NCBI RefSeq assembly: GCF_020103755.1
Contig: NZ_JAHSQD010000003.1
Coordinates: 1 to 64,000, forward strand
From: Streptomyces sp. LS1784
GTDB taxonomy: Bacteria; Actinomycetota; Actinomycetes; Streptomycetales; Streptomycetaceae
Direction of reading: 5' to 3'
DNA: 64,000 nt
The notes beneath the pieces were generated by a model. That model was not told the origin of the DNA. It did no database searches and saw only the letters and a program-made list of their open reading frames with translations. Each line of letters starts with the position of its first letter. Position 1 is the stretch's first letter. The position numbers were made by a program, and so were the translations under genes. Positions 17,237 to 37,500 of this stretch are shown piece after piece.

Positions 17237-18973
17237 TCAGGCGCCGGCGGACGCCAGTCGGGCGTGCCGGCGGGCGGTCGCCTCGGCGGGGTCGAGCACC
17301 GGGACGGCGGCCAGCAGGCCCTTGGTGTAGTCGTGCCGGGGTGAGTCGTACACGGCGTCGGCGTCGCCCTGTTCCACGATCCGCCCGGCCCGCATGACCG
17401 CGACGCGGTCGCTCACCTGCCGGACCACGGCGAGGTCGTGGGCGATGAAGACCAGCGCGAGGCCGAGGTCGCGCTGCAGCTCGCCCAGCAGCTCGACCAC
17501 CTGAGCCTGGGTGGTGACGTCCAGCGCGGAGACCGGCTCGTCGCAGACGATCAGTCGCGGCCGGGGCGCCAGCGCCCGGGCGATGCCGACCCGCTGCCGC
17601 TGCCCGCCGGAGAACTCGTGCGGGTAGCGGTGGTACCAGTCGGCGTCGAGCCCGACGCGTTCGAGGAGATCGCCGACCCGGGTGCGGATGCGGCGCTCGT
17701 CGCTCTCGCCCGCGACGCGCAGCGGGTCGGCGACGGACTCCCCGATGCTGCGGCGCGGGTTGAGCGAGGAGACCGGGTCCTGGAAGACCATCTGCAACTC
17801 CCGTCGGATCGGGCGCAGTTCCTTCTCCCCGAGCGCTCCGATGTCCCGGCCGCGATAGTGGAGCCGTCCGCCGGTCGGCTCCAGCAGCCGGACGAGCATC
17901 CGTCCGAGCGTGGTCTTCCCGGAGCCGGACTCGCCCACGATGCCCAGCGTCTCGCCGGCCCGCACGGTGAGCGATACCCCGTCCACGGCGGTCACGGGGG
18001 CGGCGCGCCGGGCGAGGCCGCCGCGGGTGGCGAACTCCCGGCGCAGGTCGACGGCTTCGAGCAGGACGTCGCCCTCGACGGGCCCGGTGGAACCGGCAGG
18101 CCCGGCGAGGGCCTCCGGGGCGTCGACCCGCGGCACCGCCGACAGCAGCGCGCGGGTGTACGGCTCGCGCGGAGCGCCCAACACCTCGGTGACCGGGCCG
18201 TGTTCCACCGCCCGGCCGTCCTTCATCACCAGCACCCGGTCGACGCTCCCGGCGACCACGCCCAGGTCGTGGGTGACCAGGACCAGCCCGGCCCCGGTCT
18301 CGGCGCGCAACTCGTGCAGCAGGTCGAGGATCTGGGCCTGGACGGTGACGTCCAGCGCGGTCGTCGGCTCGTCGGCGACCAGCAGCCGCGGCTCGCAGGC
18401 CAGCGCCATCGCGATCAGCACCCGCTGGCGCATGCCGCCGCTGAACTCGTGCGGACGCGACCGCGAGCGGCGTGCCGCGTCGGCGATGCCGACGCGGTCG
18501 AGCACCTCGACGGCCCGGGCCCTGGCATCCCGGCGGGAGACGTCCCGGTGCACCCGTACGACCTCGGCGATCTGGTCCCCCACCGCGTAGTACGGGTCGA
18601 GGGCGGAGAGCGGGTCCTGGAACACCATGGCCGCCAACCCGCCGCGCAGGCGCCGGAGTTCCTCGCCCTCGGCGGTGACGGCGTCGACGCCGGCGACCCG
18701 GACCGAGCCGCCGATCCGGGCGCCGGTCCCGCGGTGCAGGCCGAGCAGTCCGTAGGCGACGGTGCTCTTGCCGGAGCCGGACTCGCCGACGATGCCCAGC
18801 GCCTGCCCGGCCTCCAGGGTGAAGCCCACGCCGTCGACGGCGCGGACGTGGCCGTCGCCGACCGGGAAGTCGACGACCAGGTCCCGGACGTCGACCAGGG
18901 GTCCGGCGCTCGGCGGTCCGGCGACCAGGCGTGCGGCGCTCAGGGGTTCGGCACTCAGGGGCACGGCGCTCAC
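17237..18973 (-). CDS. Fused dual ABC ATPase of a peptide importer (OppDF-type)
   Basis: A 578-residue protein carrying two complete oligopeptide-type ATPases. Domain 1 (about 25-275) has [17 protein letters not shown] and [12 protein letters not shown]; domain 2 (about 315-560) has [17 protein letters not shown] and [12 protein letters not shown]. Each ends in the Opp-type C-terminal signature, [10 protein letters not shown] and [10 protein letters not shown]. Normally these are separate OppD and OppF polypeptides, but fusion is common in actinomycetes. The GTG at 18973 overlaps the upstream permease stop as GTGA; the much longer open frame is read-through. It energises uptake through the two permeases and lipoprotein encoded upstream. 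Confidence 0.93.
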
Positions 18974-19959
18974 GTCAGGACCACCCTTCGGTCGGACACC
19001 GCGTAGAGCACGTCCGCGATGACGTTGGCGAGGACCACGCAGAACCCGGTGACGAGGGTGAGGCCCACGACGGTCGGCAGGTCGATCAGTCCGACCGAGG
19101 TGACCAGCAGCTTGCCGAGCCCCGGGAGGCCGAAGAGCGACTCGGTCAGCACGGCGGACCCGAACATCGTCCCGAGGTCGATGGCGGTGAGCGCGATCAC
19201 CGGGGTGAGCGCGCCGCGCAGCGCGTGCCTGGTCACCAGGCTCCGTTCGCTGACGCCGTACGCCCTGAAGGTCCGGATGTGGTCGTCGGCGAGGGCCTCC
19301 AGCATGGACGAGCGGGTCAGCCGGGCGTACTTGGCGGACTCGATGAGGGCGAGCGAGACCCAGGGCAGCAGCAGGCCCCAGAACCACTGCTGCGGGTCCT
19401 CGGTGAGCGGCACGTAGCTCGGGAACGGCAGCCACTGGAGCTGGGCGCACAGGACGATGAGCAGCACCAGGCCGATGATGAACACCGGGACGGAGCTGCC
19501 GGCCAGCGTCAGCCCGGTCAGCAGGCGCTCGCCGAGCCGGCCCCGGCGCAGCGCGGAGACCAGCCCGGCGCCGACCCCGAGGACCAGCCAGACCACCATC
19601 GCGCCGAGCGCCAGCGAGGCCGTGACCGGGAGCCGGGCGGAGATCATGTCGGTGACCTGCTCGCCGCTGCGGTAGGAGACGCCGAGGCAGGGCGCCGGGC
19701 AGTGCAGCAGGCCCGTTCCGGCGCTGAAGTCGCGGCCGGCGACGATGCCCTGGAGGAAGTGGGCGTACTGCAGGTGGACGGGCGCGTCGAGGCCAAGGCG
19801 TTCGCGCACCTGGGCGACCTGGGCGGGGCTGCACTTCTCGCCGCAGGCCAGCTGGGCGGGGTCGCCGGGGGCGATGTAGAAGACCGCGTAGACGATCAGG
19901 GAGAGCGCGAGCAGGACGCCGAGCATGCCGACGGCCTTGCGGAGCAGGAAGCGGGTCAT
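18970..19959 (-). CDS. Peptide ABC transporter permease, DppB/OppB type
   Basis: A 329-residue integral membrane protein with about six TM segments. It has the OppB-type opening ([20 protein letters not shown], then IAPGDPA) and the EAA-loop region [20 protein letters not shown]. The periplasmic loop contains four cysteines (CGEK, HCPAPC), which is unusual and could form disulfides. Its ATG at 19959 overlaps the DppC-type gene stop by four bases (ATGA) and its stop overlaps the ATPase start. Confidence 0.92.
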
Positions 19960-20996
19960 GCGGTGGCCTCCTCGGTGGTGCTCGAAGGACGGGCGTCCGA
20001 GGCGGGCCGGTCCGCCGGCGAACCGGCGCTGCCGCGCGCCGTACCGACCCGCAGCCGGGAGGCCGCGCGGGGGTCGAGCTCGGTGCGGACGGCATCGCCG
20101 AGCACGGTGAAGGCGAGCACGGTGACGAACAGCAGCGCCGACGGGAGCAGCACGTACATCGGGTCCGCACGGAACCAGGTGGTCGCGCCGGAGAGCATCT
20201 GGCCCCACGACGAGGTCGGCGGCTTGACGCCCACACCGAGGAAGGACAGCCCGGCCTCGGCCATCACGTTGGACGGCAGCAGGACCGCCGCGTAGGTGAT
20301 GACCGGCGCGGCCAGGGAGGGCAGCAGCTCCCGGCGGGCGATCCGCCACCGGGTGGCGCCGGCCAGCCGGGCCGCGGCCACGTAGTCGAGCTGCCGGAGG
20401 CTGAGCGTCTGCGCCCGGACCAGCCGGGAGGTGCCGCCCCAGCCCAGCAGCCCGATGACCAGGGTCAGCAGGAGCGGGCGGGGGAAGCCGGAGGGCACGA
20501 CCGCCATCAGCGAGATGGCGAAGACCAGCGAGGGCAGCGCGAGCATCACCTCGGTGGTGTTGCCGATCAGCTGGTCGAGCACCCGGCTGCCGAGGCCCGC
20601 GGCCAGCCCGAGCAGGACGCCGATCGCGACCTGGACGAGGGTGGCGCCGACGGCGACGAGCAGCGAGATCCTGGCGCCGTCGACCAGTCGGGCGAACACG
20701 TCGCGCCCGGTGCCCGGTTCGACGCCGAGCCAGTGCTCGGCGCTGACACCGCCGAAGGAGCCGTTGGGCACCCCGCCGGCCGCCGAGTCGAGCAGGTCGT
20801 TGTGGTAGCTGGTGGGGTCCTGGCCTTCGATCGCGCCGAGCAGCGGTGCCGCCGCCGCGATCAGGACGAGCAGGACGATGACGAGGCCGGCGGCGAGGAC
20901 GGCGCGCCGCGCGAGCAGCCGCCGCCACACCTGTCGCCCCCCGGCGGCCGGGGAGGCCGCGAGGCCCTCCCCGGCTCTGGGTTCCTGTGGAGCCAT
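19956..20996 (-). CDS. Peptide ABC transporter permease, DppC/OppC type
   Basis: A 346-residue permease with an N-terminal cytoplasmic stretch, a first TM (VLAAGLVIVLLVLIAAAAPLL), the OppC-type GTDxxGRDVFAR-like motif (VEPGTGRDVFARLVDGARIS) and the EAA loop AEAGLSFLGVGVKPP. The C-terminal 45 residues are polar and low-complexity. The start is the ATG at 20996, the first residue before conserved sequence; the long upstream frame belongs to the binding-protein gene in another phase. It is coupled by ATGA to the partner permease. Confidence 0.92.
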   Translation of the reverse strand: MAPQEPRAGEGLAASPAAGGRQVWRRLLARRAVLAAGLVIVLLVLIAAAAPLLGAIEGQDPTSYHNDLLDSAAGGVPNGSFGGVSAEHWLGVEPGTGRDVFARLVDGARISLLVAVGATLVQVAIGVLLGLAAGLGSRVLDQLIGNTTEVMLALPSLVFAISLMAVVPSGFPRPLLLTLVIGLLGWGGTSRLVRAQTLSLRQLDYVAAARLAGATRWRIARRELLPSLAAPVITYAAVLLPSNVMAEAGLSFLGVGVKPPTSSWGQMLSGATTWFRADPMYVLLPSALLFVTVLAFTVLGDAVRTELDPRAASRLRVGTARGSAGSPADRPASDARPSSTTEEATA

Positions 20997-21028
20997 GGTT
21001 GTCCGATCGATCCGTCCGTCGCCGTCCG

Positions 21029-22747
21029 CTACTTGACCGCGACCTGGGAGATGTCGAGCACGCCGGTCCAGTCGCTGATGACGATGTTGCGGACGTCCTT
21101 GCCGGACAGCCGCTTGTAGACGGGGTGGAACAGCGGGACGGTGAGGGCCTGCTCGCCGATCCGCTTGTCCAGGGCGCCCCAGCGCTTGGCGGCCTCGGCG
21201 TGGTCGGTGATCTTGTTGATCTGGTCGATCTCGTCGTTCACCGACGGGTCGTCCAGCTGCGCGGAGTTGAAGTTGTAGCCGTCGGTGACGATCTGCCGGC
21301 CGTCGAAGATCGGCGCGAGGAAGGGGCCGCCGGACGGCCAGTCGGCGCCCCAGCCGGAGAGGAAGAGGCCGGGCTCGGTGCTGACGGTGTGGATCGTCTT
21401 GGAGTACCTGGTGGAGTCCAGGGCCTCCAGCTGGACGGTGATCCCCGCCGCCTTCAGGCCGTCCTGGACGGCGGTGGCCAGGTCCGGGCCGTAGCCCTTG
21501 CCCGTGGCGCTGGAGTGGGTGAGCGTGATGGTCAGACCGTCCGGGTAACCGGCCTCCTTCAGCAGCTCCTTGGCCTTCTCCGGGTTGCCGGTGGCGCCGG
21601 CCGGGAACGGGTCGTACGGCGTGTACCCGAACGTCTCCTGGTTGGGCAGGTAGGTGGTGGCGGCCTCGGCGAGCGAGGAGCCGCCGGCGGCGTTGACGAC
21701 CGAGGTGCGGTTGATCGCGTAGGCGACGGCCTGCCGGACCCTGGGGTTGTCGAAGGGCTTGACCTTGGGGTTGAACGCCAGGTAGTTGACGTAGCCGAAG
21801 TGGCCGGTGCCCACGCGTGCGGCGAGGGCCTTGTCGTCCTTCACCTGGGCGAGTTCGGAGGGGCCGAGGTTGGTGTCGGTGGTGACGGCGGCCGCGTCGG
21901 CGCCGGTGCCGGCGGAGAGCCGCTGGTTGATCACCGCCGGGTCGAGCCCGGACTGCACGTCGATGGTGTCCGGGTACGCCTTGCGCTGGTCGTCCGTCGC
22001 CGCAGACCAGTTGGGGTTGCGCGTGAGGACGAGGTGGGCACCGTCGTTCTCGTTCTTGACGACCTGGTAGGGGCCGGAGGAGACGGGGTGCTCCTGGTAC
22101 TTCGTCCCGGTGTCCTTCGCCTTCGGGACGGGTGCGAACTGCGTCTGGGTGGCCAGGTACGGGAAGTCGCCCTCGGGCTTGGCGAGATGGAAGACGATGG
22201 TCTTCTCGTCCGGGGTCTCGATGGCGCTCAGACCGCCACCGTCCTTGTACGGACCCTGGTAGTCCGCGGCGCCGACCAGCCAGTCCCTCAGGAACGGTGC
22301 GCCACCGGAGAGTTCGGGAGCGAACGACCTCTCGATGCCGTACTTGATGTCGGCGGTGGTGATCGGCGAGCCGTCCTCGTACGTGAGGCCGTCCTTGAGC
22401 CGGTAGGTCCACACCGTCGCACCCTCCGACGGGGTGCCGGTGTCGGTGGCGAGGTCCGGGACCACCTTGGTGCCGGCCGCGCCGTCGGCCCGGTTGCGGG
22501 TGGTGAGGGTGCGGAAGACCAGGGAGGGCACGTTGCCGCCGCCGGAGGTGTAGAGCCGTGCGGGGTCGAACTGGTCCTGCGGGTTCTGGTTGAGGACGGT
22601 GAGGGTGCCGCCCTGCTGCGGCGCGGCGCCCTTGTCGGCGCCTCCACCGCCGTCGGCCTTCGGTCCGCACGCCGCCACTCCGACGACCAGGGCGACGGTG
22701 ACGGTCGCCGCGGCGAGGCGGCGGGGGGTGAAGGTGGTTCGAGACAT
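21029..22747 (-). CDS. Peptide/SBP_bac_5 family lipoprotein, ABC transporter substrate-binding protein
   Basis: A 572-residue extracytoplasmic binding protein. The signal peptide ends in the lipobox VAAC (Cys27), followed by a Gly/Ala-rich linker and the family-5 fold, with motifs such as VVPDLATDTG, TVWTYRLKDGLTYEDGSPIT, FNPKVKPFDNPRVRQAVAYAI and SGWGADWPSGG. Family-5 proteins bind peptides, glutathione, nickel or opines; the sequence does not settle which. A cysteine-containing leader peptide and hairpins precede the gene, suggesting control by cysteine supply and hence a sulfur-containing peptide ligand (inference). Confidence 0.92.
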   Translation of the reverse strand: MSRTTFTPRRLAAATVTVALVVGVAACGPKADGGGGADKGAAPQQGGTLTVLNQNPQDQFDPARLYTSGGGNVPSLVFRTLTTRNRADGAAGTKVVPDLATDTGTPSEGATVWTYRLKDGLTYEDGSPITTADIKYGIERSFAPELSGGAPFLRDWLVGAADYQGPYKDGGGLSAIETPDEKTIVFHLAKPEGDFPYLATQTQFAPVPKAKDTGTKYQEHPVSSGPYQVVKNENDGAHLVLTRNPNWSAATDDQRKAYPDTIDVQSGLDPAVINQRLSAGTGADAAAVTTDTNLGPSELAQVKDDKALAARVGTGHFGYVNYLAFNPKVKPFDNPRVRQAVAYAINRTSVVNAAGGSSLAEAATTYLPNQETFGYTPYDPFPAGATGNPEKAKELLKEAGYPDGLTITLTHSSATGKGYGPDLATAVQDGLKAAGITVQLEALDSTRYSKTIHTVSTEPGLFLSGWGADWPSGGPFLAPIFDGRQIVTDGYNFNSAQLDDPSVNDEIDQINKITDHAEAAKRWGALDKRIGEQALTVPLFHPVYKRLSGKDVRNIVISDWTGVLDISQVAVK

Positions 22748-23388: not shown

Positions 23389-24117
23389 TCAGTCGGCCGC
23401 CCCGGCCCGGGAAACGGGGCTGCCGCCCGTGCGGGCGTCGTCCCGGCCCTCGACCAGGACGGCGGGCTCCAGCGGCGAGGCGATCTCCTGCGGTCTGCTG
23501 CGGGACGCCCAGTCGCGGATGCCGAGCAGCACCATCACGAAGAAGATCCCGTAGACGATGCCGGAGAAGTACAGCTCGGAGTGGACCGCGAGCGGCACGC
23601 CCACCAGGTCGACGGCCAGCCAGACGAACCAGAACTCCACGTAGCGGCGGGCCTGGCTGTACATGGCGAGGATCGAACCGACGAAGATCCAGGCGTCCGC
23701 GAGCACCATCCACCACGGCGCCCCGGGGTAGAACGAGGCGTCCGTCCCCTTCAGCACCGCACCGAACGCGGCCGTCCCCAGCACCATCGCGGCCATCAGC
23801 ACCGCGCGTTCCCGCCCGGACGCCCAGCGGACGTTGATGGTGCCTTCCTGCTCCCGGCTGCGCTTCCAGGTCGCCCAGCCCCAGGAGGCCGAGACGATGA
23901 TGACGATCTGCCGGGCGGCGTTGCCGCCGAGGTGCACGTTCAGGCTGGCGATCAGCAGCAGCACCGAGCCGAGGATCTGCACCGGCCAGGCCACCAGCGA
24001 GCGCCGCAGGGCCAGCCAGACGGTGGCGAGCGCCAGGATGTTGCCCAGGAAGTCGGACCAGTAGACGGGGAGGCCGAAGAAGTCGAACTGCTCGTTCAGC
24101 CAGTGGAACGCGCTCAT
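23389..24117 (-). CDS. pnuC: PnuC-superfamily vitamin transporter, probable riboflavin transporter (RibM/PnuX-like)
   Basis: A 242-residue membrane protein of seven or eight TM segments with the PnuC-family N-terminus (FDFFGLPVYWSDFLGNILALATVWL) and C-terminal SGIVYGIFFVMVLLGIRDW. PnuC proteins import nicotinamide riboside. The actinobacterial subgroup PnuX/RibM imports riboflavin, and this gene is last in an operon with a riboflavin kinase, a flavin reductase and an FMN-type monooxygenase, so riboflavin is the likelier cargo. I see no FMN riboswitch upstream, unlike biosynthesis-linked ribM genes. A TGAGTC spacer follows AAGGTG before the ATG at 24117. Confidence 0.85.
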   Translation of the reverse strand: MSAFHWLNEQFDFFGLPVYWSDFLGNILALATVWLALRRSLVAWPVQILGSVLLLIASLNVHLGGNAARQIVIIVSASWGWATWKRSREQEGTINVRWASGRERAVLMAAMVLGTAAFGAVLKGTDASFYPGAPWWMVLADAWIFVGSILAMYSQARRYVEFWFVWLAVDLVGVPLAVHSELYFSGIVYGIFFVMVLLGIRDWASRSRPQEIASPLEPAVLVEGRDDARTGGSPVSRAGAAD

Positions 24118-24160
24118 GACTCACACCTTTGTTCGTGCGGAGCGAGGTGGGGGAAGGGGC

Positions 24161-24195
24161 GGTCGGCCCCGCCGAAGCGGGGTGCGGGGCCGACC
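24161..24195 (-). terminator. Stem-loop between the riboflavin kinase and RibM-like genes
   Basis: Perfect 12-base arms GGTCGGCCCCGC (24161-24172) and GCGGGGCCGACC (24184-24195). In the minus-strand RNA an alternative, very stable CCCCGC-UUCG-GCGGGG tetraloop hairpin (24182-24167) shares the same bases. It could be an intra-operon terminator, a processing site, or a switch. Confidence 0.6.
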
Positions 24196-24268
24196 GGGCT
24201 CGGGGCGCGGGGCGCGCGCAGTCGTGAGGGGGGCGGGTGTGCGCGCCGGCAGGTGAAGGGTGGTGGTG

Positions 24269-24311
24269 CCGGTGGATCAGGAGGGGAAGGGCGGCACCGG
24301 TGGATCAGGAG
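24269..24311. repeat. 28-base-period tandem duplication across the riboflavin kinase stop codon
   Basis: CCGGTGGATCAGGAG occurs at 24269-24283 and again at 24297-24311. The second copy contains the real TGA (complement of TCA at 24305); the first is a duplicate just downstream in the 3' UTR. Compare 26708-26754. Confidence 0.8.
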
Positions 24312-24730
24312 AGGGCGGCGAGGACGTGCCGTCCGTGCTCGGAGTCCAGCAGGGTCTCGGAGCGGCGGACGTCCTCCCGGGCGGCGAGCAGCAGCTCGTC
24401 GACGGAGGCGAACCTCTCGGTGTCCCGGATCCGGGCGACGAACCACAGGTCGACGCGCTCGCCGTACAGGTCGCCCGGGGCGTCGTGGCAGTACACCTCG
24501 GTGTGGATCTCGGAGGTGTCGCAGAAGGTGGGGTTGGTGCCGATGCTGATCGTCGCGCGGTGCACGGTGCCCGTCGCGCGGCGGGCCAGCCAGCCGCTGT
24601 AGATCGCGGGCGGCGGGACGGGCGCACCGGGGTCGGAGGCGATGTTGGCGGTGGGGAAGCCCAGCCCCCGCCCCCGGCCGGCACCGTGCACCACGGTGCC
24701 GGACAGGGGGGTCGTCGGAGCGTCAGCCAT
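24305..24730 (-). CDS. Stand-alone riboflavin kinase domain protein (RcaA-like)
   Basis: A 141-residue protein matching only the C-terminal riboflavin kinase half of bacterial RibF. Motifs are VVHGAGRGRGLGFPTANI (the kinase ATP/substrate loop), a WLARRATG-type strand, SIGTNPTF and YGERVDLWFVARIRDTERF. The FAD-synthetase half is absent, not truncated by mutation: the frame starts with a short linker and is coupled to the preceding gene by an 8-base overlap (ATG 24730 against TGA 24723). A GTG at 24745 is an alternative start. A separate kinase beside a riboflavin-cleaving enzyme fits conversion of riboflavin to FMN for catabolism, not primary cofactor synthesis (inference). Confidence 0.9.
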   Translation of the reverse strand: MADAPTTPLSGTVVHGAGRGRGLGFPTANIASDPGAPVPPPAIYSGWLARRATGTVHRATISIGTNPTFCDTSEIHTEVYCHDAPGDLYGERVDLWFVARIRDTERFASVDELLLAAREDVRRSETLLDSEHGRHVLAALS

Positions 24731-25280
24731 GGGGGGTGAGCTCACGGAACTGGCTGGTGTGGAAGACCAGCGGCTCCACCCCGGGGAACAGCTCGACGGT
24801 GAGCAGCTCCATCAGGACGATCTCGTGGTCGCCGCCGTCGTACACCGCGTTCACCCGGGCGGTCTGCCACAGCGCCGCGTCGTGGATCAGCACAGCGCCG
24901 TCCGGCGTCGCCTGCCACCCGGTGCCGTCGAAGCGGTCGCCCTCGCGGGAGGCGAGCCGTCGGCAGAGCGCGCCCTGGCCACGGCTGAGCACGCTCAGCC
25001 CCAGGACCGGCGCCTCCGTCAGCCTCGGCCAGGTGGTCGAGGTGCGGGCCACGCTGACGGCGACCATCGGCGGCTCCAGCGAGATCGACACGAAGGAGCT
25101 CACCGCGAGCCCGACCGGTTCGCCGTCGCGCAGCGCGCCGAGCGCGACCACCCCGGTGGGGTAGGCCCCGAACGCCTGGCGCAGCGCCGCGGCGTTCAGC
25201 TCCGCCGTGTGCGGTACGACCGCGTTCGGTTCCGCGGACGCGGCGGCGGGCGGGTTCGGATGGTGGGCGGGAGTGACCAT
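24723..25280 (-). CDS. Flavin reductase family protein (RcaB-like)
   Basis: A 185-residue protein of the DIM6/NTAB split-barrel family that reduces free FMN or riboflavin with NAD(P)H for partner monooxygenases. Visible motifs are FGAYPTGVVALGALRDGEPVG, GLAVSSFVSISLEPPMVAVSV and HEIVLMELLTVELF. The first 30 residues are low-complexity. It lies 35 bases after the monooxygenase gene, the usual two-component arrangement, and overlaps the riboflavin kinase gene. Confidence 0.92.
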   Translation of the reverse strand: MVTPAHHPNPPAAASAEPNAVVPHTAELNAAALRQAFGAYPTGVVALGALRDGEPVGLAVSSFVSISLEPPMVAVSVARTSTTWPRLTEAPVLGLSVLSRGQGALCRRLASREGDRFDGTGWQATPDGAVLIHDAALWQTARVNAVYDGGDHEIVLMELLTVELFPGVEPLVFHTSQFRELTPHG

Positions 25281-25315
25281 GGTCGTCGCCGTCCTCTCGT
25301 CGCGAGTGGGGTGGT

Positions 25316-26662
25316 TCAGTGCCGGTACTGCGCGGCCGGGTGGCTGGCCGGCAGCGCCCGGTCGGACGCGCCGGTGAGCCGCTCGCGCAGCGACTCGCCG
25401 GCCGCGTACTCGCCGCGGAAGACGCCGCGGGCGCGCAGGATCGGCAGCACCGACTCGACGAACTCCGTGGTGGAGGCCGGCTGCACGGTCGGGGAGAGCA
25501 GGAAGCCGTCCAGGTCGGCGCCCTCCGCCAGGGCACAGATCTCGTCGGCGATCTCCTCGGCGGTGCCGACCACCGGACGGGCGCCGACGCCGTGGGTGTG
25601 CCAGTCGGCGAGGACGTCACCGACGGTCTTGCCGGCGAACCGGGCGACCTGGGTCTGCGACATCTCGGTGGACAGCTCCGACATCGGGGTGTCCGGCGCG
25701 TACGAGGACAGGTCGAGGCCGGTGAACATGGCGTAGCTGGCGACGGTGACCTCCGGACGCTGGGCGTCCAGGACACGCTGCCAACGGCGTTCGGCGTCCG
25801 CGGTGGTGGCGCCGACCACGCAGGAGAACGCCGACATCACCTTGACCTCGTCGGCCCGGCGGCCCGCCCGTACGGCCTCCTCGCGGATCGCCGCGGTGTG
25901 CCCGGCGAGCTGCTGCACCGAGCCGCTGCCGACGAACATGCACTCCCCGTGCCGCCCGCCGACCCGGCGGCCTGCCGGGGAGGCGCCGGCCTGGAACAGC
26001 ACCGGGGTGCCCTGCGGGGAACGGGCGGTGTTGCCGTAGCCGTGCGAGCGGAAGTACGGACCCTCGTGCTCGACCAGGTGCACCTTGGCCGGGTCGGCGA
26101 ACCGGCCGTCCTTGTCCTTCTCCAGGGCGTCCGGCTCCCAGGCGCCCTCCCAGTACTTGTAGACCAGGTCGAGGAAGTCCTCGGCCATCGTGTACCGGTC
26201 GTCGTGCGCCACCATGTCCATGCCGAAGGCCTTGACCGCGGTGTCGGCCGTGCCCGTGGTCACGATGTTCCAGCCGAGCCGGCCGCCGGACAACTGGTCC
26301 AGGGTGGCCAGCCTGCGGGCGAACGCGTACGGCGGCTCCACCAGCACCGAGCCGGTCACCACCAGTCCCAGGTCGGTGGTGCCGGCCAGCAGCGCCGAGG
26401 CGACCACGAACGGGTCCAGGCGCGGCAGGTCCAGGGTCTCCTCGGTGGCGATCGGCGGGCGCACCCCGTTGATCTCCGACCAACCCCAGGCGTCGGCCAG
26501 GAACAGGAAGTCAAGCTTGGCGTCCTCGCAGATCTGCGCGATCTCGCGCCAGTACCCGAGGGTGTCGAACAGGTGCCGGCGGCTGTCGGGGTGGCGCCAG
26601 GTGGCGGTGCCGCTCGCGTTGGTCTGGGCGTTCTCGAACAGTCCGAGCTTGAGGTTGCGCAT
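25316..26662 (-). CDS. LLM-class FMN-dependent monooxygenase, NtaA/SnaA/DszA family (candidate riboflavin-cleaving RcaE)
   Basis: A 448-residue bacterial-luciferase-like (TIM-barrel) oxygenase. NtaA-subfamily landmarks are FLFLADAWG, RLDPFVVASALLAGTTDLGL, RLATLDQLSGGRLGWNIVTT, DDRYTMAEDFLDLVYKYW and QAGASPAGR. Members oxidise nitrilotriacetate, sulfonates, thiophenes or pristinamycin; RcaE of Microbacterium, in the same family, splits riboflavin into lumichrome and a ribose unit. Between a ribokinase and a flavin reductase/riboflavin kinase pair, the RcaE role is the best-supported one. The main alternative is a sulfur- or carbon-scavenging monooxygenase. The ATG at 26662 is followed directly by conserved MRNLKLGLF. 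Confidence 0.9.
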   Translation of the reverse strand: MRNLKLGLFENAQTNASGTATWRHPDSRRHLFDTLGYWREIAQICEDAKLDFLFLADAWGWSEINGVRPPIATEETLDLPRLDPFVVASALLAGTTDLGLVVTGSVLVEPPYAFARRLATLDQLSGGRLGWNIVTTGTADTAVKAFGMDMVAHDDRYTMAEDFLDLVYKYWEGAWEPDALEKDKDGRFADPAKVHLVEHEGPYFRSHGYGNTARSPQGTPVLFQAGASPAGRRVGGRHGECMFVGSGSVQQLAGHTAAIREEAVRAGRRADEVKVMSAFSCVVGATTADAERRWQRVLDAQRPEVTVASYAMFTGLDLSSYAPDTPMSELSTEMSQTQVARFAGKTVGDVLADWHTHGVGARPVVGTAEEIADEICALAEGADLDGFLLSPTVQPASTTEFVESVLPILRARGVFRGEYAAGESLRERLTGASDRALPASHPAAQYRH

Positions 26663-26707
26663 GGGTGTTCTCCGTTGAACCGATGGTGCGGGGGGGAGGT
26701 GGGGAAG

Positions 26708-26754
26708 CCGAAGGTGCGTCAGGACGCCGGGGAACCGAAAGTACGTCAGGACGC
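26708..26754. repeat. 27-base-period tandem duplication across the ribokinase stop codon
   Basis: Two 20-base copies (26708-26727 and 26735-26754) are identical at 18 positions, including the TCAGGACGC that holds the complement of the TGA stop at 26746. The outer copy lies in the 3' UTR. It is the same type of event as at 24269-24311 in this operon. Confidence 0.75.
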
Positions 26755-27681
26755 GGCGGGAACCGCGGGAACGCCGGGGGCGGCGGCCGCGTCGAGCTGT
26801 GCCGCGGACGGCATGGAGGACTGGGCGCCGAGACCGGTCACGGCCAGCGAGGCCGCGCGGACGGCGCGGCGGGCGGCGGCCGGCAGGTCGGAGCCCCGGG
26901 CGAGGGAGTCGGCGAGGGCTCCGCAGAAGGTGTCGCCGGCGCCGACGGTGTCGACGGCGTCCACGACGGGGGCCGGCAGGTGCACGGCGGGGCGGCCGGG
27001 CTGCTTGATCAGCGCCCCGTCCGCGCCGAGCGTCACCACCACGGCCCGGCAGGGCAGCGCGGCCCGTTCCAGCAGCTCACGCGCCCCGTCCGGGCCGGCG
27101 GGCGGCTCCGCGCCGAGCAGGGTGGCGAGTTCGCCGAGGTTGGGGACGAGGACGTCGACGGCGGACAGCACCTCCGGGGCGACCGGCCGGGCCGGGGCCG
27201 GGTTGAGGACGACCGTGCCGCCCTGCTCCCGGGCCCGCAGCACGGCCGCGGCGACCACCTCGGCGGCGATCTCGTGCTGCACCAGGACCACCTCGCCCGC
27301 CGACCGGGCCAGCCGCTCCGGCAGGTCCGCGACCGACAGCGCGGCGTTGGCGCCGGGGTTGACCACGATGGTGTTCTCGCCGCCCCGGTCGACCACCACC
27401 GAGGCGATCCCGGTGGTGCTCTCCGGCTCCGGGCGCACCGCCTCGACGTCCACCCCTTCGGCGGCGAGCGCCCGCAGGATGGTGTCGGCGTCCGCGCCGA
27501 CCCTGGCGACCAGGCGCACCTGCGACCCGAGCCGGGCCGCCGCGACGGCCTGGTTGGCGCCCTTGCCGCCGACGCCCTCCACGAAGCCCCGCGCGAGCAC
27601 GGTCTCGCCGGGGCGCGGCAGGTCCTCGACGGTGAGGACGAGGTCGCGGTTGACCGAACCGACGACGGTGATGGGCGGCAT
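26746..27681 (-). CDS. rbsK: Ribokinase (PfkB family), RcaD-like
   Basis: A 311-residue sugar kinase. The N-terminal PITVVGSVNRDLVLTVEDLP, the substrate block GGKGANQAVAAARLG, the mid-protein LNPAPARP and the PfkB signature DTVGAGDTFCGAL with the catalytic Asp are intact. It would phosphorylate ribose released from the ribityl/ribose side. The ATG at 27681 was preferred to the GTG at 27687 because AAGGAG lies five bases ahead. A perfect 18-base palindrome sits immediately upstream and a LacI regulator is divergent. It is first in the riboflavin-type operon rather than beside rbs transporter genes, which argues against ordinary ribose uptake. Confidence 0.92.
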   Translation of the reverse strand: MPPITVVGSVNRDLVLTVEDLPRPGETVLARGFVEGVGGKGANQAVAAARLGSQVRLVARVGADADTILRALAAEGVDVEAVRPEPESTTGIASVVVDRGGENTIVVNPGANAALSVADLPERLARSAGEVVLVQHEIAAEVVAAAVLRAREQGGTVVLNPAPARPVAPEVLSAVDVLVPNLGELATLLGAEPPAGPDGARELLERAALPCRAVVVTLGADGALIKQPGRPAVHLPAPVVDAVDTVGAGDTFCGALADSLARGSDLPAAARRAVRAASLAVTGLGAQSSMPSAAQLDAAAAPGVPAVPAAS

Positions 27682-27691
27682 CTGCACTCCT

Positions 27692-27709
27692 TGGGAGATC
27701 GATCTCCCA
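27692..27709. promoter_or_regulatory. LacI-family operator, perfect 18-base palindrome
   Basis: TGGGAGATCGATCTCCCA is fully symmetrical with a central CG, the usual form of a LacI/PurR-type site. It lies 11 bases before the ribokinase ATG, overlapping its ribosome-binding region, and 97 bases before the divergent LacI gene. Confidence 0.75.
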
Positions 27710-27805
27710 CACTGTGGACCAGCCCCCGGAAACCGTCAAGTACCCTCGTGCTGCGCATTCCGCCAGCTCAGCCGAGCCCGATTCCGACCGCGAAGGACCG
27801 CCCAC

Positions 27806-28798
27806 GTGACAGCGCCCCGACTCCTCGACGTGGCCGCGGCCGCCGGCGTCTCCCGCGCGACCGCCTCACGCGTCCTGGCCGGCACCCCGCGCAACGTCGA
27901 CCCCGAACTCGCCCGCCGCGTCGAGGAGGCCGCCCAGCGCCTCGGCTACCGCACCAACCACTCCGCCCGGGCGCTGCGCACCGGCACCACGGGCACCATC
28001 GGCGTGGTCGTCCCCTCGCTCGCCAACCCGTACTTCGTCCAGCTCGCCGACGCCATCGCCCAGCAAGTCCGCGCCGCCGGCGGGCAGTTGGTGGTCTCCG
28101 ACGCCGCCAACGACACCGCCGTCGAGGCCGAGCAGATCGAGACCCTGCTCGGCGGCCGCGTCGACGGCCTGCTCGTCGTCCCCGTCTCCGCCGGCGCGTC
28201 CGGCCCCGCCGTCCGGGCCGCCGCCAAGCGCGCCCCCGTCGTCCTCTTCGACCGCTGGGCCACCGGCTCCGGCACCGTCGCCGTCACCCTCGACAACACC
28301 GCCGCGATGCGGCTGCTCCTCGACCACCTCGAAGGCCTCGGCCGCCACCGGATCGCCCTGGTCGCCGCCGACCAGGCCTCCTCCTCCGGCGCGGAACGCC
28401 TCGCCGCCTTCACCGAGGCCCGCGGGGCCGACGCCACCACCGTCCTGCTGCCCAGCTTCACCACCGACGCCGGCCGCACCGCGGGCCGCCGCATCGCCGA
28501 ACGGCACGCCGAGATCGACGCCGTCGTCTGCGGCGCGGACGTCCTCGCGGTGGGGCTGGTCAGCACCCTGCAGCGCTCGGCGGTCCCCGTCCCCGGCCGG
28601 ATCGCCGTCACCGGCTTCGACGACACCGAGATACTCGAACTCCTCGACCCGCCCATCACCTCCATCCGCCACCCGCTCACCACCATGGCCGAACGCGCCC
28701 TGACGCTCCTTCAGGCCCCTGACCGTGAAAGGACGGAGCGCGTGGAGCGCTTCGCTCCGCAGCTGGTGGTGCGCTCCTCCACGGACGCGAACGCCTGA
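27806..28798 (+). CDS. LacI-family transcriptional regulator
   Basis: A 330-residue repressor. The N-terminal helix-turn-helix and hinge (LLDVAAAAGVSRATASRVL to GYRTNHSARALRTG) are typical, followed by the periplasmic-binding-protein fold with IGVVVPSLANPYFVQLADAI and the C-terminal GFDDTEILELLDPPITSIRHP. The GTG at 27806 has GAAGGA eight bases upstream; the enormous upstream open frame is read-through. It probably represses the divergent ribokinase operon through the palindrome at 27692-27709 and is released by ribose or a riboflavin breakdown product (inference). Confidence 0.92.
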   Translation: MTAPRLLDVAAAAGVSRATASRVLAGTPRNVDPELARRVEEAAQRLGYRTNHSARALRTGTTGTIGVVVPSLANPYFVQLADAIAQQVRAAGGQLVVSDAANDTAVEAEQIETLLGGRVDGLLVVPVSAGASGPAVRAAAKRAPVVLFDRWATGSGTVAVTLDNTAAMRLLLDHLEGLGRHRIALVAADQASSSGAERLAAFTEARGADATTVLLPSFTTDAGRTAGRRIAERHAEIDAVVCGADVLAVGLVSTLQRSAVPVPGRIAVTGFDDTEILELLDPPITSIRHPLTTMAERALTLLQAPDRERTERVERFAPQLVVRSSTDANA

Positions 28799-28962: not shown

Positions 28963-30309
28963 TCAGGCCTGCCGCCGCACGGCGATGACCACCGCGCCCA
29001 GGACGCACGCGACGGCGGCGGTGACGTAGGCGAGGTGGTAGCCGGCGAGCTGGTCCCCGCTGGTCGCCGCGACCAGAACCATCACCGCCACGCCCGCACT
29101 GGCGCCGATCTGCTGCGTCACGACGTTCACCGCGCCGGCGACGGCGTGCTGCCGCTCCGGGACACCGGAGAGGCCGGCGGACGTCATCGAGGGGAAGTTC
29201 AGCCCCTGGCCGATGCCGCTGACCACCAGACCGGGCAGCACGTGCAGCACGTAGCTGCCGTCCTGCGGCGTGCCCAGCCACAGCCCCGTACCCACACCGA
29301 TCAGGACGAGGCCGACGGCCATCAGCGTTCGCGGGGAGTACGCGGCCAGCAGGCGACCGGTGGCGAAGTTGGCGGTGAGGAACACGGCCAGGGACATGGG
29401 CACCAGCGCGACACCGGACTCGAAGGGCGAGTAGTGCAGCATGCCCTGCAGGTACAGCGGCGCGAAGAACAGCATCCCGACCGAGCCCATGTACTGGAGG
29501 AACGCCGCCAGGCTCGCCTCCCGGACCGAGCCGATCCGGAAGAGGCCGAGCGGAAGCACCGGGTCGGCGGTGCGGTGCTCCCGCACGACGAACAGCACCA
29601 GGGAGACCACCGCGGCGCAGAGGATGATCCACGCCGTCGCGCCGCCGCTGCTCACGCCGACGACGAGCAGCGTGAGGCCGAGCGTGCCCGTGATCGCGCC
29701 GGGCAGGTCCAGCCGACCGCGGTGCCCGGCACCGTCGGGCAGTCCGATGCGCGTCGCGGCCAGTACGCCGAGTCCCAGCAGCACCGAGAACCACAGCACC
29801 GAACGCCAGCCGAAGAACTCGGTCAGGACGCCGCCCAGCAGGACCCCGCCGCTGAAGCTCGCGGCGCCGACGGCCGCGTACACCCCGAAGGCCCGGTTGC
29901 GCGCCGGGCCGGCCGGGAACGTGTCGGTGAGCAGGGCCAGCGCGGCCGGCCCGGACAGGGCGGCGCCGATGCCCTGGACGGCGCGCGCCCCCAGCAGCGT
30001 CGCGGCGTTCGGGGCCACCGCCCCGACCAGCGCGGACACGGTGAACAGGGCGACACCGACCTCGAACACCCGCCGCCGCCCGAGCACATCGGCCAGCCGG
30101 CCACCCACCAGCAGGAAGCCGGCGAACGTGACGGCGTAGGCGGTCATGACCCACTGGAGCGTGGTTTCGTCGAGGTGGAAGCGCTCTCCGACGGACGGCA
30201 GGGCGGCGTTGAGCACTCCGAGACCGCTCACGTCCAGTGCGAGCGCCCCGGCCAGCACCCCGAGCGCCAGCCCCGGCCGGCTGACCCGCTCGATCGCGGT
30301 GTCGGTCAT
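28963..30309 (-). CDS. MFS drug-efflux transporter, DHA2-like
   Basis: A 448-residue transporter with about 14 hydrophobic segments. It has motif A as GGRLADVLGRRRVFEVG, motif C-like GPAALALLTDTFPAG and the start ALALDVSGLGVLNAALPSVGE, all typical of EmrB/QacA-type H+ antiporters. The ATG at 30309 begins MTDTAIERV. It lies 1.2 kb from the PKS/NRPS operon and points away from it, so it could export that product or serve an unrelated function. A TTGAGA-17-GACAAT promoter candidate lies about 120 bases upstream. Confidence 0.9.
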   Translation of the reverse strand: MTDTAIERVSRPGLALGVLAGALALDVSGLGVLNAALPSVGERFHLDETTLQWVMTAYAVTFAGFLLVGGRLADVLGRRRVFEVGVALFTVSALVGAVAPNAATLLGARAVQGIGAALSGPAALALLTDTFPAGPARNRAFGVYAAVGAASFSGGVLLGGVLTEFFGWRSVLWFSVLLGLGVLAATRIGLPDGAGHRGRLDLPGAITGTLGLTLLVVGVSSGGATAWIILCAAVVSLVLFVVREHRTADPVLPLGLFRIGSVREASLAAFLQYMGSVGMLFFAPLYLQGMLHYSPFESGVALVPMSLAVFLTANFATGRLLAAYSPRTLMAVGLVLIGVGTGLWLGTPQDGSYVLHVLPGLVVSGIGQGLNFPSMTSAGLSGVPERQHAVAGAVNVVTQQIGASAGVAVMVLVAATSGDQLAGYHLAYVTAAVACVLGAVVIAVRRQA

Positions 30310-30425
30310 GCGGGCCTGCCCGCGAGGTCGCGGCCGGCGAGTGCCCGGCCAGGGGGGTCGCTTCGCCGCGGCCGGGTGGACGGCACACGGCACTGCGGGA
30401 AACGCCCGGCTAAGGAGCTGTCGGC

Positions 30426-31546: not shown

Positions 31547-34500
31547 ATGCCCCAAGAGCGCGCAGCGCGAGACATATCCGCCGTAACGGATTTCCTGCTA
31601 TCCCGTTTTGCCGAGCTGATGGACCTGTCCGCGAACTCGGTGGACCGCTGGGCGCCGATGCACCGGTACGGGCTGGACTCGTTGAAGTCGGTGAACCTCG
31701 CGGCCTCCCTGTCCGAGTTCCTCGGCTGGCAGGTCCCGGCCACCTGGATGTGGCAGTACCCGACCGTCGACGGGCTGGCCCGCGCCCTCGTCGACGGTCC
31801 GCGTGCCGCGGAGCCCGCCCCGGGCGCCGAGCGCCGCAAGCCCTCGCACGAGCCCGTCGCGATCGTGGGCATCGGCTGCCGGTTCCCCGGAGGACCGGAC
31901 CCGTCCTCGTTCTGGCGGCTGCTGGTCGAGGGCGGCGACGCCGTCGGGCCGGTGCCGGCCGCGCGCCGCGATCTCCTGAACGACCGGGTGCGCTGGGGCG
32001 GGTTCATCGACGGCATCGACCGGTTCGATCCGCTGTTCTTCGGCATCTCGCCCCGCGAAGCCGTCCAGATGGACCCTCAGCAGCGCCTGATCCTGGAGTT
32101 GTCCTGGGAGGCCCTGGAGGACGCGGGCATCGCGCCGCACAGCCTCGTCGGCAGCGACACCGGCGTGTTCATGGCCTCCTGTTGGGGCGACTACGCCGCC
32201 CTGGCGCACTACCGCGGCCCCGACAGCCAGATCACCCCGCACACCGCGACCGGCATGCACGACGGGATCATCGCCAACCGCGTCTCCTACATCCTCGGCC
32301 TGCAGGGGCCGAGCATGGCCATCGACGCCGCCTGCGCCGGATCGCTGGTGTCGGTGCACGTGGGATGCCAGTCGATCCAGCTGGGCGAGAGCGACCTGGT
32401 ACTGGCCGGTGGCGTGAACCTGAGCTTCGTCTCCGACTACTACACCGCCATGGACCAGATGGGCGCACTCGCCCCGGACGGCCGCTGCAAGTCGTTCGAC
32501 GCCCGCGCCAACGGCTACGTCCGCGGTGAGGGCGCCGGCGTGGTCGTGCTCGCTCCGCTGAGCGTGGCGCTGGAGCGCGACCTTCCGGTGTACTGCCTGA
32601 TCAAGGGCAGCTCCTCCAACAACGACGGTCTGAGCAACGGCATGACGGCGCCCAACCCCCAGGCGCAGGAGAAGATGCTCCGCACCGCGTACCAGCGGGC
32701 GGGCATCGCACCGCACCTCGTGGACTACGTCGAGTGCCACGGCTCCGCGACGCCGCTCGGCGACCCGATCGAGGCCAACGCCATCGGCGCGGTCCTGGGC
32801 GGCGACCGCGCGGAGCCGCTGCGGCTCGGCTCCGTCAAGTCCAACGTCGGGCACCTGGAGGCGGCCGCCGGCATCGTCGGCCTGGTCAAGATCGCGATGT
32901 CGATGCGCAACGGCGTGCTGCCGCCGAGCCTGCACTACAGCGCGCCGAACCCGCAGATCATGTTCGACGAGTACAACCTGACCGTCCAGGACCGGCTGAC
33001 GCCGTGGCCGCGGCGGTCCGACGCCCGCCGCGGTGGCGTCAGCTCGTTCGGGTTCGGCGGCGCGATCTGTCACGTGGCCGTCGAGGAACTGCCGCGCCCC
33101 GAGGCCTCGCTCCTCCTGCTGGCCGCGGACTCCCCCGAGGCGCTGGCCGAGCAGGCCCGGGCGCTGCGCGACGGGAACGACCTGCGCGCGCTCTGCCGCC
33201 GGACGCCCGGCGACGGCCCGTTCCGGCTCGCGGCCACGGCCCGCGACATGGCCGAACTCCGCACCGGTCTCGACGCGTTCGGCAGCGGCACGCCCGCCCC
33301 CGGACTGAGCGTCGGGGAGAAGACCGACGGCAGGCCGCGGGTGGCGTTCCTGTTCTCCGGCAACGGCTCGCAGTGGGTGGGCATGGGCCGGCAACTGCTC
33401 GCCGGCCTGCCCGTGTTCCGCCGGTCCATGATGAAGTCCGACCGGCGGATGCGAGAGCTGCTGGGCTTCTCGCTCGTCGAGCAGCTGCTGTCCCCCGAGG
33501 GCCGCCTCGACGACATGGACGTGTTCCAGCCGCTGCTGTTCTCCATCCAGGTCGCGCTGGCCGAGACCTGGCGCTCGCTGGGGGTGGAACCGGACGTCGT
33601 CCTGGGACAGAGCGTCGGCGAGTTCGCCGCCTCCCACGTCGCCGGCGCGCTCGACTTCGACGACGCCTCCCGCCTGGCCGCCCACCACGGCCGGCTCCTC
33701 CAGCAGCTGGCCGTGGGACGCGGCGAGGGCATCGTGGTGATGACCCCCGCGGACGAGGTCCGGCCCCATCTGACCGGCGGGCTCACCGTCTCCGGCTACA
33801 ACGGCCTGAACTCCACCCTGGTCACCGGCACACCGCAGGAGATCGACGACCTCGTCCGGCGGCTGACCGAAGCGGGCGTCACCAACCACCGGGTGCGGAT
33901 GGGCCACGCCCCGCACTCGTCGCTGGTCGACCACGTCCTCGCCCCGCTGAAGGTCGAACTGGAGGGCATCCGGCCGCGGACCACCCGCATCCCGATGATC
34001 TCGACGGTCACCGGCGAACTCGTCGACGGCGCGGAGCTCGGGCCGGACTACTGGGCGGACAACCTGCGCCGCGAGATCCGGGTGGTCGACGCCCTGACGA
34101 ACCTGCGCGACCACGACATCGACGCGGTGATCGAGCTCAGCCCGCACCCCGTCCTGCTCAAGTCGGTGTCGGAGATCCTGCCGGCGGCCACCCTGCCCTC
34201 GCTCCGGCGCGGCGCCGACGAAGCCTCGACCCTGCTCGGCTCACTCGGTGCCCTGTACACCGCCGGGTTTCCCGTCGCGGCCCACCCCTTCCTGGCCGGC
34301 GACCGGGGACGGCACGTCGCGCCGAGCCCGGGCGACGCCGCGGCCGGCGAGCAGCTGCACCTCGTGCCCGTCACGGCCCGCACCACGGGCGCGCTGGCCG
34401 ACACCTGCCGCGAGCTGTCCAACCACGTCGAACGCGACCCGGGCCTGCGGGTCTGCGACCTCGCCTACACCCTCGCCGCCAGGCGCACCCATCACAGCCA

Positions 34501-37500
34501 CCGGATCGCGCTGTTCGCCCGCAACCGGCAGGACGTCCTGGACGGGCTCGCCCGGGTCGCCGCCGGCCAGTCACACCCCGACGTCGTCACCGGCACGGTC
34601 TCCGGCAGCACCGACCGCCGGGTGGCGCTGGTGTTCTCCGGCGGCGGCACCCAGTGGGTCGGCATGGGCCGGGAGCTGCTGCGCTCGCACGCCGGCTTCC
34701 GCACCTGGATGAACGCCTGCGACGCCGCCGTGCGCGCGGCCGGCGGTTTCTCGGTGCTCGACCACCTCGCCGCCCCCGCGGAGGAGGCCAGGTACGAGGA
34801 GATGGACTTCCAGCAGCCGGTGCTGTTCGCCCTCCAGGTCTCGCTGGCGAAGGTCTGGCTCGAACTGGGCATCGAGCCGGCGGCCGTCGTCGGGCACAGC
34901 CTGGGCGAGGTCGCGGCCGCCTGCGTGGCCGGGGCGCTGTCCCTGGAGGACGCCGCCCGCGTCGTGGTCGCCCGCTCGCACCTGCTGGAGCGCAAGGCCG
35001 ACGAGGGCGCCATGATCTCGGTCGACCTGCCGGAGGAGGAACTGCAGCCGCGGCTCGCCCCCTACGCGCAGCACGCCGCCATCGCCGTGGTCAACAGCCC
35101 CACCAGCGCGGCGGTCTCCGGCTCGCCCGAGGCCGTCGACGCCCTGGAGGCGGACCTCCGGCGGGACGGGATCTCGGTCCGGAGGATCCGGGTCGAACGG
35201 CCGGTGCACAGCCCCGGCATGGACCCGCTGATCCGGCCGCTGCGCGAGAGCATCGAGGGCATCACCCCGCTGACGCCGGCCATCCCCTTCCACTCCACGG
35301 CGCTGGCCGACACGGTGAACCCGGTCGCCGACGTCGACTACTGGGTGCACAACCTGCGCAACCAGGTCCGGTTCGCCGAGACGATCGGTGCGCTGGTCGA
35401 CCGGGGCGTCTCCACCTTCATCGAGATCGGCCCGCACGAGACGCTGCGCGGCGCGGTCGAGGAGATCGGGCTGTCCCGCGGTGCCCAGGTGCACGCGGTC
35501 AACTCGCTGCGGCGCGAGGAGAGCGACGTCCGCTGCCTGCTGGGCGCCGCCGCCTCGCTGTACGTCAGGGGCCTGCCGCTGACCTTCGACCCGCTGTTCG
35601 CCGACGACGTCGAGGTCGTGGAGACCCCGCTCGTCCAGTGGCAGAAGGACCGCTACTGGATCGACACCGAGCCCCGCCGCGAACCCGCACCGGCCCCGGC
35701 CCCCGTCGAAACCGTGCCCGTGGCCGCGGCCGTGGCCGTGGCCGCGGCCGCTCCGGTGGAGACGCAGCCGGTGGCGCAGCGGCCGGTGGCGGAGGTCGTC
35801 CTCGCCGAACTCGCCGACGCGCTGGGCGTGCCGGTGAGCAGGTTCGACACGGCCGCCGGCCTGCGGGACTTCGGCCTCGACTCGATGCTGGCGATCCGCC
35901 TCGTCAACAAGATGCAGGCACTGTTCGGGCACCGGGTGTCGCCGGTGGTGTTCCTGGACGGCCGCTCGATCTCCGAGGTCGTCGGTCACTTCGTCGAGAT
36001 CACCGGTGGACCGGCCGCGCCCGCGACAGCCACCCAGGCACCCCAGGCACCGGTCACGGCGGCCCGGCCCGCCCCGGCCCCGGCCCTCGGGGCCGAGCCG
36101 ATCCGGTCGTTCCTGGAGGACCTGTCCGAACTGGACGCCGAGGAGCTGGTCGAGGAACTGGACGCGCGCGGGCTGCTGGAAGCCACCGACGCACCGGCGT
36201 TGGAGCAGCTCCGGGCCGAGGGCCTCGGTCTCCGGGTGGCGCCGGCCTCGCACGGCCAGGCCTCGCTGTGGTTCATGCAGATGGTCGCGCCGGACGCCGT
36301 GCCCTACAACTTCATGGTGACCGCCCGGATCCGCACCGCGGTCGACGAGGACGCGCTGGAGCGCGCCGTCCAGGCCGTGCTGGACCGACACCCCGCACTG
36401 CGCACCGTCTTCGTCGAGGCGGGCGGCAGCCCGTACCAGGTCATCCTGGACGAACCGGTGTACGAGTTCCTCGTGGTGGACACCTCCGGCCTGGACGACG
36501 AACAGGCCCGCGAGGAACTGGCCCAGTACGGGCACGAGCCGCTCGACATGGACAACGGGCCGCTCGTGCGGATCGTCCTCATGAGGCGCGGGCCGGCGGA
36601 CCACTACCTGCTGGTGCTCGTCCACCACATCGCGTCGGACGCGGCGTCGGCCGACGTCATGATCCGCGAACTCCAGGAGTACTACGAAGGCGCCGACCCC
36701 GCCCGCAGCGCGCCGGTCGCCCCGTACACCGAGTTCGTCGAGTGGGAGCGGCAGTGGCTGGCCGGACCGGCGGCCGACGCGGCCCTGGAGTGGTGGTCGC
36801 GGAAGCTGGCCGACCCGCCCGCCCACCTCGACCTCTCCAGCAAGGAGCGGCCGCCGGGCGTCACCTACGAGGGCCGCGACATCGCGTTCCGCTGGAGCGC
36901 CGAGGAGACGCGCCTGCTGCGCGAGTTCGCGGTGCGCGAGGGCGTGTCGATCAGCACCGTCGTCCTGGCCGGGTTCTTCGCCACGCTCAACCGCGCGGCC
37001 GGGACCGAGGACTCGGTGCTGGCCACCGCCATCGCCCAACGGGCCGAGCCCGGCTGGGAATCCGCCATCGGCTACTACCTCAACACCGTGCTGGTACGCG
37101 CGAACCCCGCCGGCGACCGCAGCTTCCGCGAACTGCTGCACGAGGTCCACGCCTTCTCGCTCGGCCTCCTGGAGCACATGAACTACCCCCTCGACCTGCT
37201 GGCCTCCCAGCTGAAGCCGCCGCGGGCCGAGGGCCGCTCCCCGTGGTTCGACGTGGTGGTGAACTGGCTGTCCTCGGACGCGTTCCCCCGCTCCGTCAAG
37301 CTCTTCCACGGCGTCGGCGAAACCCTCACGCCGGACGGCGCACTGCCGCTCGAACCGCTTCAGGTGCGCAGGCACCTCGCCAAGTTCGACCTCGAAATCT
37401 CGATGGCCGACATCGACGGCAGGGTGGCCGGCCACGTCCAGTTCAAACCGAGCTACCTGGAAAGGCAGACCGTGACGGCACTGCTCGCGCTGTACCGCAC

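Follow-up and report, generated by a model that had tools for sequence, protein, structure and literature searches.

What does a streptomycete do with a gene cluster that joins a flavin monooxygenase to a flavokinase and a ribokinase, and how is such a cluster controlled? The question is raised by six genes at positions 23389 to 28798 of a 64,000-nucleotide stretch of Streptomyces sp. LS1784 (contig NZ_JAHSQD010000003.1, positions 1 to 64,000; hereafter the window), for which an initial annotation had proposed a probable operon for riboflavin catabolism that is controlled by a LacI repressor encoded beside it. Our analysis upholds this proposal. The genes very probably make up an rca operon that degrades riboflavin and is arranged in the streptomycete fashion; it would be switched by the LacI-family protein, supplied by RibM-type import and coupled to the use of ribose. 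The support comes from the RcaE orthology of the monooxygenase, its partner genes, a transporter clade sister to RibM and a conserved operator-like palindrome. The six genes lie where the annotation had placed them, as judged from their coordinates and from Pfam matches that are each at or above the family cut-off:

23389-24117, minus strand: RibM-type transporter gene of the Pnu family (NMN_transporter, 152 bits), a predicted riboflavin facilitator
24305-24745, minus strand: kinase-only, RcaA-like flavokinase (Flavokinase, 103 bits, single domain), presumed to convert riboflavin to flavin mononucleotide (FMN)
24723-25280, minus strand: RcaB-like flavin reductase (Flavin_Reduct, 109 bits), presumed supplier of reduced FMN (FMNH2)
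25316-26662, minus strand: rcaE, orthologue of the riboflavin lyase/monooxygenase (Pfam Bac_luciferase)
26746-27681, minus strand: RcaD-like ribokinase (PfkB, 212 bits), with an ATG start behind AAGGAG
27807-28798, plus strand: lacI, divergent from the operon (Pfam LacI and Peripla_BP_3), its GTG start picked by eye from the ribosome-binding site

The operon thus reads ribokinase, monooxygenase, flavin reductase, flavokinase and transporter. The annotation had described genes running in one direction with overlaps; the common direction holds, and with the listed starts the overlap is confined to the reductase-flavokinase junction (23 bp), the remaining gaps being 83, 35 and 187 bp.

The identity of the monooxygenase carries most of the argument. 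Compared with all PDB sequences, it matched best, and over its full length, the entry 5w48 (709 bits), with 309 of 446 aligned residues identical (69%), while the second-best match, a dimethyl-sulfide monooxygenase, reached 303 bits. The PDB name of 5w48 reads Riboflavin Lyase, and we take it to be the RcaE of Microbacterium maritypicum. Identity was 32-38% to DmoA, LadA, HcbA1, DszA, a nitrilotriacetate (NTA)-family protein, YtnJ and a distant Amycolatopsis relative (L022) used as outgroup only. A maximum-likelihood tree of 36 rows (29 RcaE-like rows and seven outsiders) placed the RcaE-like rows, 5w48 included, behind a branch of length 2.1 supported at 100/100. The window enzyme therefore groups with 5w48 and apart from DmoA, LadA, HcbA1, DszA, YtnJ and the NTA-type enzymes; the grouping with sulfonate or nitrilotriacetate enzymes that the annotation had held up as contrary evidence was not seen in this tree, in which SnaA was not a row. 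Across the 29 rows 190 positions are invariant, and 25 of them, which 5w48 shares, occur in none of the seven outsiders. By these sequence comparisons, the window monooxygenase is an RcaE orthologue.

The partner genes fit the same pathway. A 2016 study in the Journal of Biological Chemistry reportedly identified RcaA as flavokinase, RcaB as flavin reductase and RcaD as ribokinase. All three families are encoded together with RcaE in the window, and with the RibM-sister transporter the four characterised activities plus import listed in the annotation are indeed represented. The flavokinase consists of the Flavokinase domain alone, without FAD_syn, and aligns well with the isolated kinase domain of the solved RibF 5a88; the ribokinase is the sole match at E≤1e-20 in the LS1784 draft genome. 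PMC12746152 describes RcaE as a riboflavin monooxygenase that depends on FMN and yields ribose and lumichrome. With riboflavin as its substrate and FMN as its cofactor, the enzyme most likely obtains FMNH2 from the kinase and the reductase. The order proposed in the annotation, in which riboflavin is trapped as FMN and then split, is probably wrong on the same description of RcaE (PMC12746152), because trapping as FMN would put the riboflavin substrate out of reach. The same reaction is predicted for the RcaE-type enzyme of the window, which would use FMNH2 and O2 to release lumichrome and ribose from riboflavin.

A single flavokinase was found in the LS1784 draft genome (1294 contigs); FAD_syn, expected from the housekeeping RibF, was not found in this draft, versus its presence in 10 of the 10 relatives searched. 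The gap is probably one of assembly; a true absence would leave the strain with no flavokinase besides that of rca. In two other Streptomyces loci whose RcaE sequences are identical, the ribokinase match (L010:9050-9933 and L065:5050-5933) falls into two offset pieces, as after a frameshift.

The 125-bp intergenic stretch between ribokinase and lacI holds the putative control region:

27734-27739, minus strand: predicted -35 element TTGACG (TACTTGACG in every one of the 21 upstream regions that were aligned)
27711-27716, minus strand: predicted -10 element CACAGT, 17 nucleotides from the -35, with a CANNNT-like hexamer, read by eye, at the same place in the aligned rows
27692-27709, no strand: predicted LacI operator, the perfect palindrome TGGGAGATCGATCTCCCA (18 bp), which spans the predicted transcription start and lies just before the ribosome-binding site

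The palindrome TGGGAGATCGATCTCCCA is the only perfect one of 18 bp in the window, and when the intergenic stretch was shuffled by mononucleotides, a palindrome of this kind arose in 11 of 20,000 trials. Allowing up to three mismatches, the operator pattern is expected 0.02 times by chance in the window, and this site is its only match. Its ATCGAT centre is kept in all 21 upstream regions, which differ from the window operator at 0 to 3 positions; these counts were read off the alignment, and the 21 include two repeat pairs (L065 repeats L010, and L051 looks like the same record as L003). As is typical of LacI-family sites, the predicted operator is palindromic with a central CG and stands at the promoter of the adjacent operon. 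It begins one base after the -10-like hexamer and covers the predicted start, the position expected of a repressor site. Of the annotated "own LacI repressor", a LacI-family regulator beside a conserved operator-like palindrome is therefore borne out, and its role as a repressor is a prediction from the position of the operator-like site.

The association between operator and operon was further evaluated in 70 genomes of one genus, taken as Kitasatospora from the correspondence of its loci, with rcaE scored as present at E≤1e-150. The operator pattern with at most one mismatch was present in 15 of the 16 rcaE genomes and in one of the 54 others. In the rcaE genome that lacks a match (G047), rcaE lies 19 bases from a contig end; the match outside the rcaE set (G003) is a non-palindromic one-mismatch site. 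In each carrier genome the pattern was found at one place, the rca operon, and the LacI protein therefore appears, from the distribution of its predicted site, to serve this operon alone. Its nearest NCBIfam models are RbsR (176 bits), GntR (158.3) and UriR (157.6), all under cut-off. It resembles RbsR- and UriR-type regulators in that these are among its best matches and in being linked to a pentose-related operon with a ribokinase, but falls far under their equivalog cut-offs and has its predicted operator once per carrier genome, at rca.

A scan of genome contigs for RcaE yielded 22 loci, 21 of them RcaE-like (matches covering less than 40% of the query were left out of the layout drawing, and those below 30% out of the wider layout table). 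All six genes occur together in 12 of the 15 loci from Streptomyces, Kitasatospora and Catenulispora, and their grouping is therefore not a matter of chance; L001 and L008 are cut by contig ends, and L012 is without the last three genes. In the complete loci of this type lacI is divergent. Two layouts were distinguished. The streptomycete type has LacI and the RibM-sister transporter and is without PadR and the ATP-binding cassette (ABC) importer. The other type, found in six Microbacterium, Agromyces, Leifsonia and Nocardioides loci and on a Maritalea plasmid, comprises an NMT1-type binding protein, an ATPase, a permease, RcaE, ribokinase, a PadR-like gene, reductase and flavokinase; L015 and L019 instead have reductase and flavokinase on the upstream side, in divergent orientation. 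Neither LacI nor a Pnu transporter was found in these six actinobacterial loci or on the plasmid, and no NMT1-type ABC importer or PadR was found beside rcaE in the tabulated streptomycete-type loci, the neighbours in the window being judged from its own gene list. The streptomycete-Catenulispora rows form a 100/100 branch in the RcaE tree, so that layout and phylogeny agree.

Compared with the rca cluster of M. maritypicum G10 (RcaA, B, D and E) and its Devosiaceae relatives, the window shares RcaE, flavin reductase, flavokinase and ribokinase. It differs from the classical layout, taken here from the Maritalea plasmid and the six actinobacterial loci, in gene order and in having a RibM-type transporter, LacI and a palindromic operator in place of the NMT1-type ABC importer and PadR, two companions that are not known to define the cluster. 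The chemistry is thus known, and the regulation and import are apparently new. A literature search found no description of this arrangement in Streptomyces or Kitasatospora; it did not cover the two founding papers of the pathway, which may mention streptomycete homologues. As a variation within the type, two Catenulispora loci (L013, L014) keep the operator and promoter and have the flavin reductase last; this reductase best matches that of Maritalea (43-46%), as if replaced.

The transporter was compared with its biosynthetic relative in the same cell. LS1784 has two Pnu-family genes, and the rca copy is 46% identical to the other, a RibM flanked by ribE and ribAB and preceded by an FMN riboswitch (100 bits). 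With this locus included, 10 of the 11 RibM loci have such a riboswitch; L081 is classed as RibM by sequence, with no riboswitch within its available stretch. The rca transporters (19 rows, 96/98) form the sister clade of RibM (11 rows, 94/98); the two join at 97/93 and stand apart from Escherichia coli PnuC and three other Pnu proteins. Because the outgroup branches are long, this joint placement is to be regarded as fair rather than final. PMC3239331 describes RibM as a facilitator that moves flavins, roseoflavin and riboflavin among them, without energy input, and the rca protein is predicted to be a riboflavin facilitator. The relatives share family and sister-clade position and differ in control: the rib copy (RibM, or PnuX) stands under the riboswitch with ribE and ribAB, while the rca copy lies in a degradative operon behind a predicted LacI-type operator. 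Control of rca by an FMN riboswitch was considered and dropped, as the window gave no Rfam family match; no FMN riboswitch was found at L013 or L014 either.

The distribution of rcaE is scattered. Besides the 16 of 70 genomes of the Kitasatospora-type genus, it was found, at the same E-value threshold, in 18 of 394 genomes of a family sample, 16 of these 18 being from that genus, and in one of 396 genomes of a phylum sample, namely LS1784 itself. The whole operon also lies on a 1.5-Mb linear Streptomyces plasmid typed as mobilizable, which makes horizontal transfer plausible.

Around the operon, two neighbours were considered as parts of it and rejected. Directly downstream (17237-22747) lies a Dpp/Opp-type ABC transporter with a family 5 binding protein, and upstream (28963-30393) a major facilitator superfamily (MFS) gene; among the 22 loci, each is adjacent elsewhere only in L003, where the ABC transporter is inverted. 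Beyond the MFS gene, a hybrid polyketide synthase/non-ribosomal peptide synthetase (PKS/NRPS) gene at 31547-37585 has a ketoacyl synthase, two acyl transferase stretches, and carrier and condensation domains, and large open reading frames run on to about 54.7 kb. A biosynthetic cluster probably adjoins the rca operon.

Taken as a mechanism, these elements suggest the following sequence. The LacI-family regulator, bound to the 18-bp palindrome over the start site, would keep the operon off until an inducer appears, for which ribose, ribose-5-phosphate and riboflavin are candidates. The RibM-type facilitator would then admit riboflavin down its gradient, and flavokinase and flavin reductase would produce the FMNH2 with which the RcaE-type lyase and O2 would split it into lumichrome and ribose. 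This cleavage would maintain the inward gradient. Ribokinase would pass the ribose into central metabolism, and lumichrome would remain or be released.

Several observations weigh against a riboflavin-degrading operon of this design. The ribokinase scores 288.5 bits with TIGR02152, just below the NCBIfam cut-off of 299.65. A strict sigma-70 consensus scan gave no promoter, the operon promoter lying below that consensus, and no intrinsic terminator was found in the scan. RibM and PnuC are hard to distinguish by sequence, according to PMC4418817. In a Kitasatospora locus (L012:11345-15000), lacI, ribokinase, rcaE and the operator are present, and reductase, flavokinase and transporter were undetected. 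Finally, genome G113 (L054:9145-10488) has a lone rcaE, 96% identical, near which none of the other five operon genes and no operator were detected, so that the gene can exist outside the set. Several scanned open reading frames beside this rcaE have no Pfam match.

The alternative that survives best retains the same enzymes and changes their purpose to lumichrome, a signal active on plants and in quorum sensing, the ribose step being secondary. We consider it unlikely. PMC12746152 suggests lumichrome as a possible point of the RcaE stage, rcaE not lying beside lumichrome-degrading genes, and G113 retains its rcaE without a ribokinase; against this, the operon opens with the ribokinase gene, which is conserved in complete loci. 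Lumichrome is known from Streptomyces cultures, by isolation or detection (PMC6998099, PMC12546214), but it may have formed there by plain photolysis. A broader reading, which we hold rather doubtful, is that streptomycetes rebuilt rca into a stand-alone source of lumichrome. In this case a passive RibM-type channel, kept empty by the lyase, would take the place of the energised ABC importer, and a LacI switch with a single site would separate vitamin destruction from FMN-riboswitch-controlled synthesis, with lumichrome released as a signal or flavins and flavin antibiotics removed from the surroundings.

An operon that imports and destroys roseoflavin-like antibiotics from neighbouring streptomycetes is improbable. 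It would agree with roseoflavin transport by RibM (PMC3239331) and with the scattered occurrence of the operon, including on a mobilizable linear plasmid, but taking up a poison only to break it down would be costly, ribokinase has no part in such a defence, and the literature search turned up no RcaE test on roseoflavin. It is more improbable still that the monooxygenase is another NtaA/DmoA-family enzyme, acting on a sulfur compound, an alkane or a chelate, with the flavin genes merely feeding it FMNH2. It does pass the general NtaA/DmoA subfamily cut-off (NCBIfam), and such enzymes need a flavin reductase; however, it falls inside the RcaE clade (100/100), with 36-38% identity to DmoA, LadA, HcbA1 and DszA versus 69% to RcaE, and a ribokinase and a flavokinase make no sense for such substrates. 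Least probable of all is an accessory of the PKS/NRPS cluster from 31.5 kb onward, a few kilobases away, given that the operon is conserved as a unit with its own predicted operator in many genomes and that the intervening MFS gene accompanies rca only here and at L003/L051 (the PKS gene was not part of the comparison).

The riboflavin-degrading operon proposed here brings a recently worked-out pathway of vitamin B2 breakdown into a Kitasatospora-type genus, in which 16 of 70 genomes carry rcaE, and provides it with a concrete switch that can be tested. LS1784 carries riboflavin synthesis genes and the riboswitch-controlled RibM besides the rca transporter; since synthesis and degradation with their RibM-type genes stand under different controls in one genome, how the cell avoids making and destroying the vitamin at once becomes directly testable. 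The operon is also a genetic candidate for the origin of lumichrome, a rhizosphere signal, in streptomycetes.

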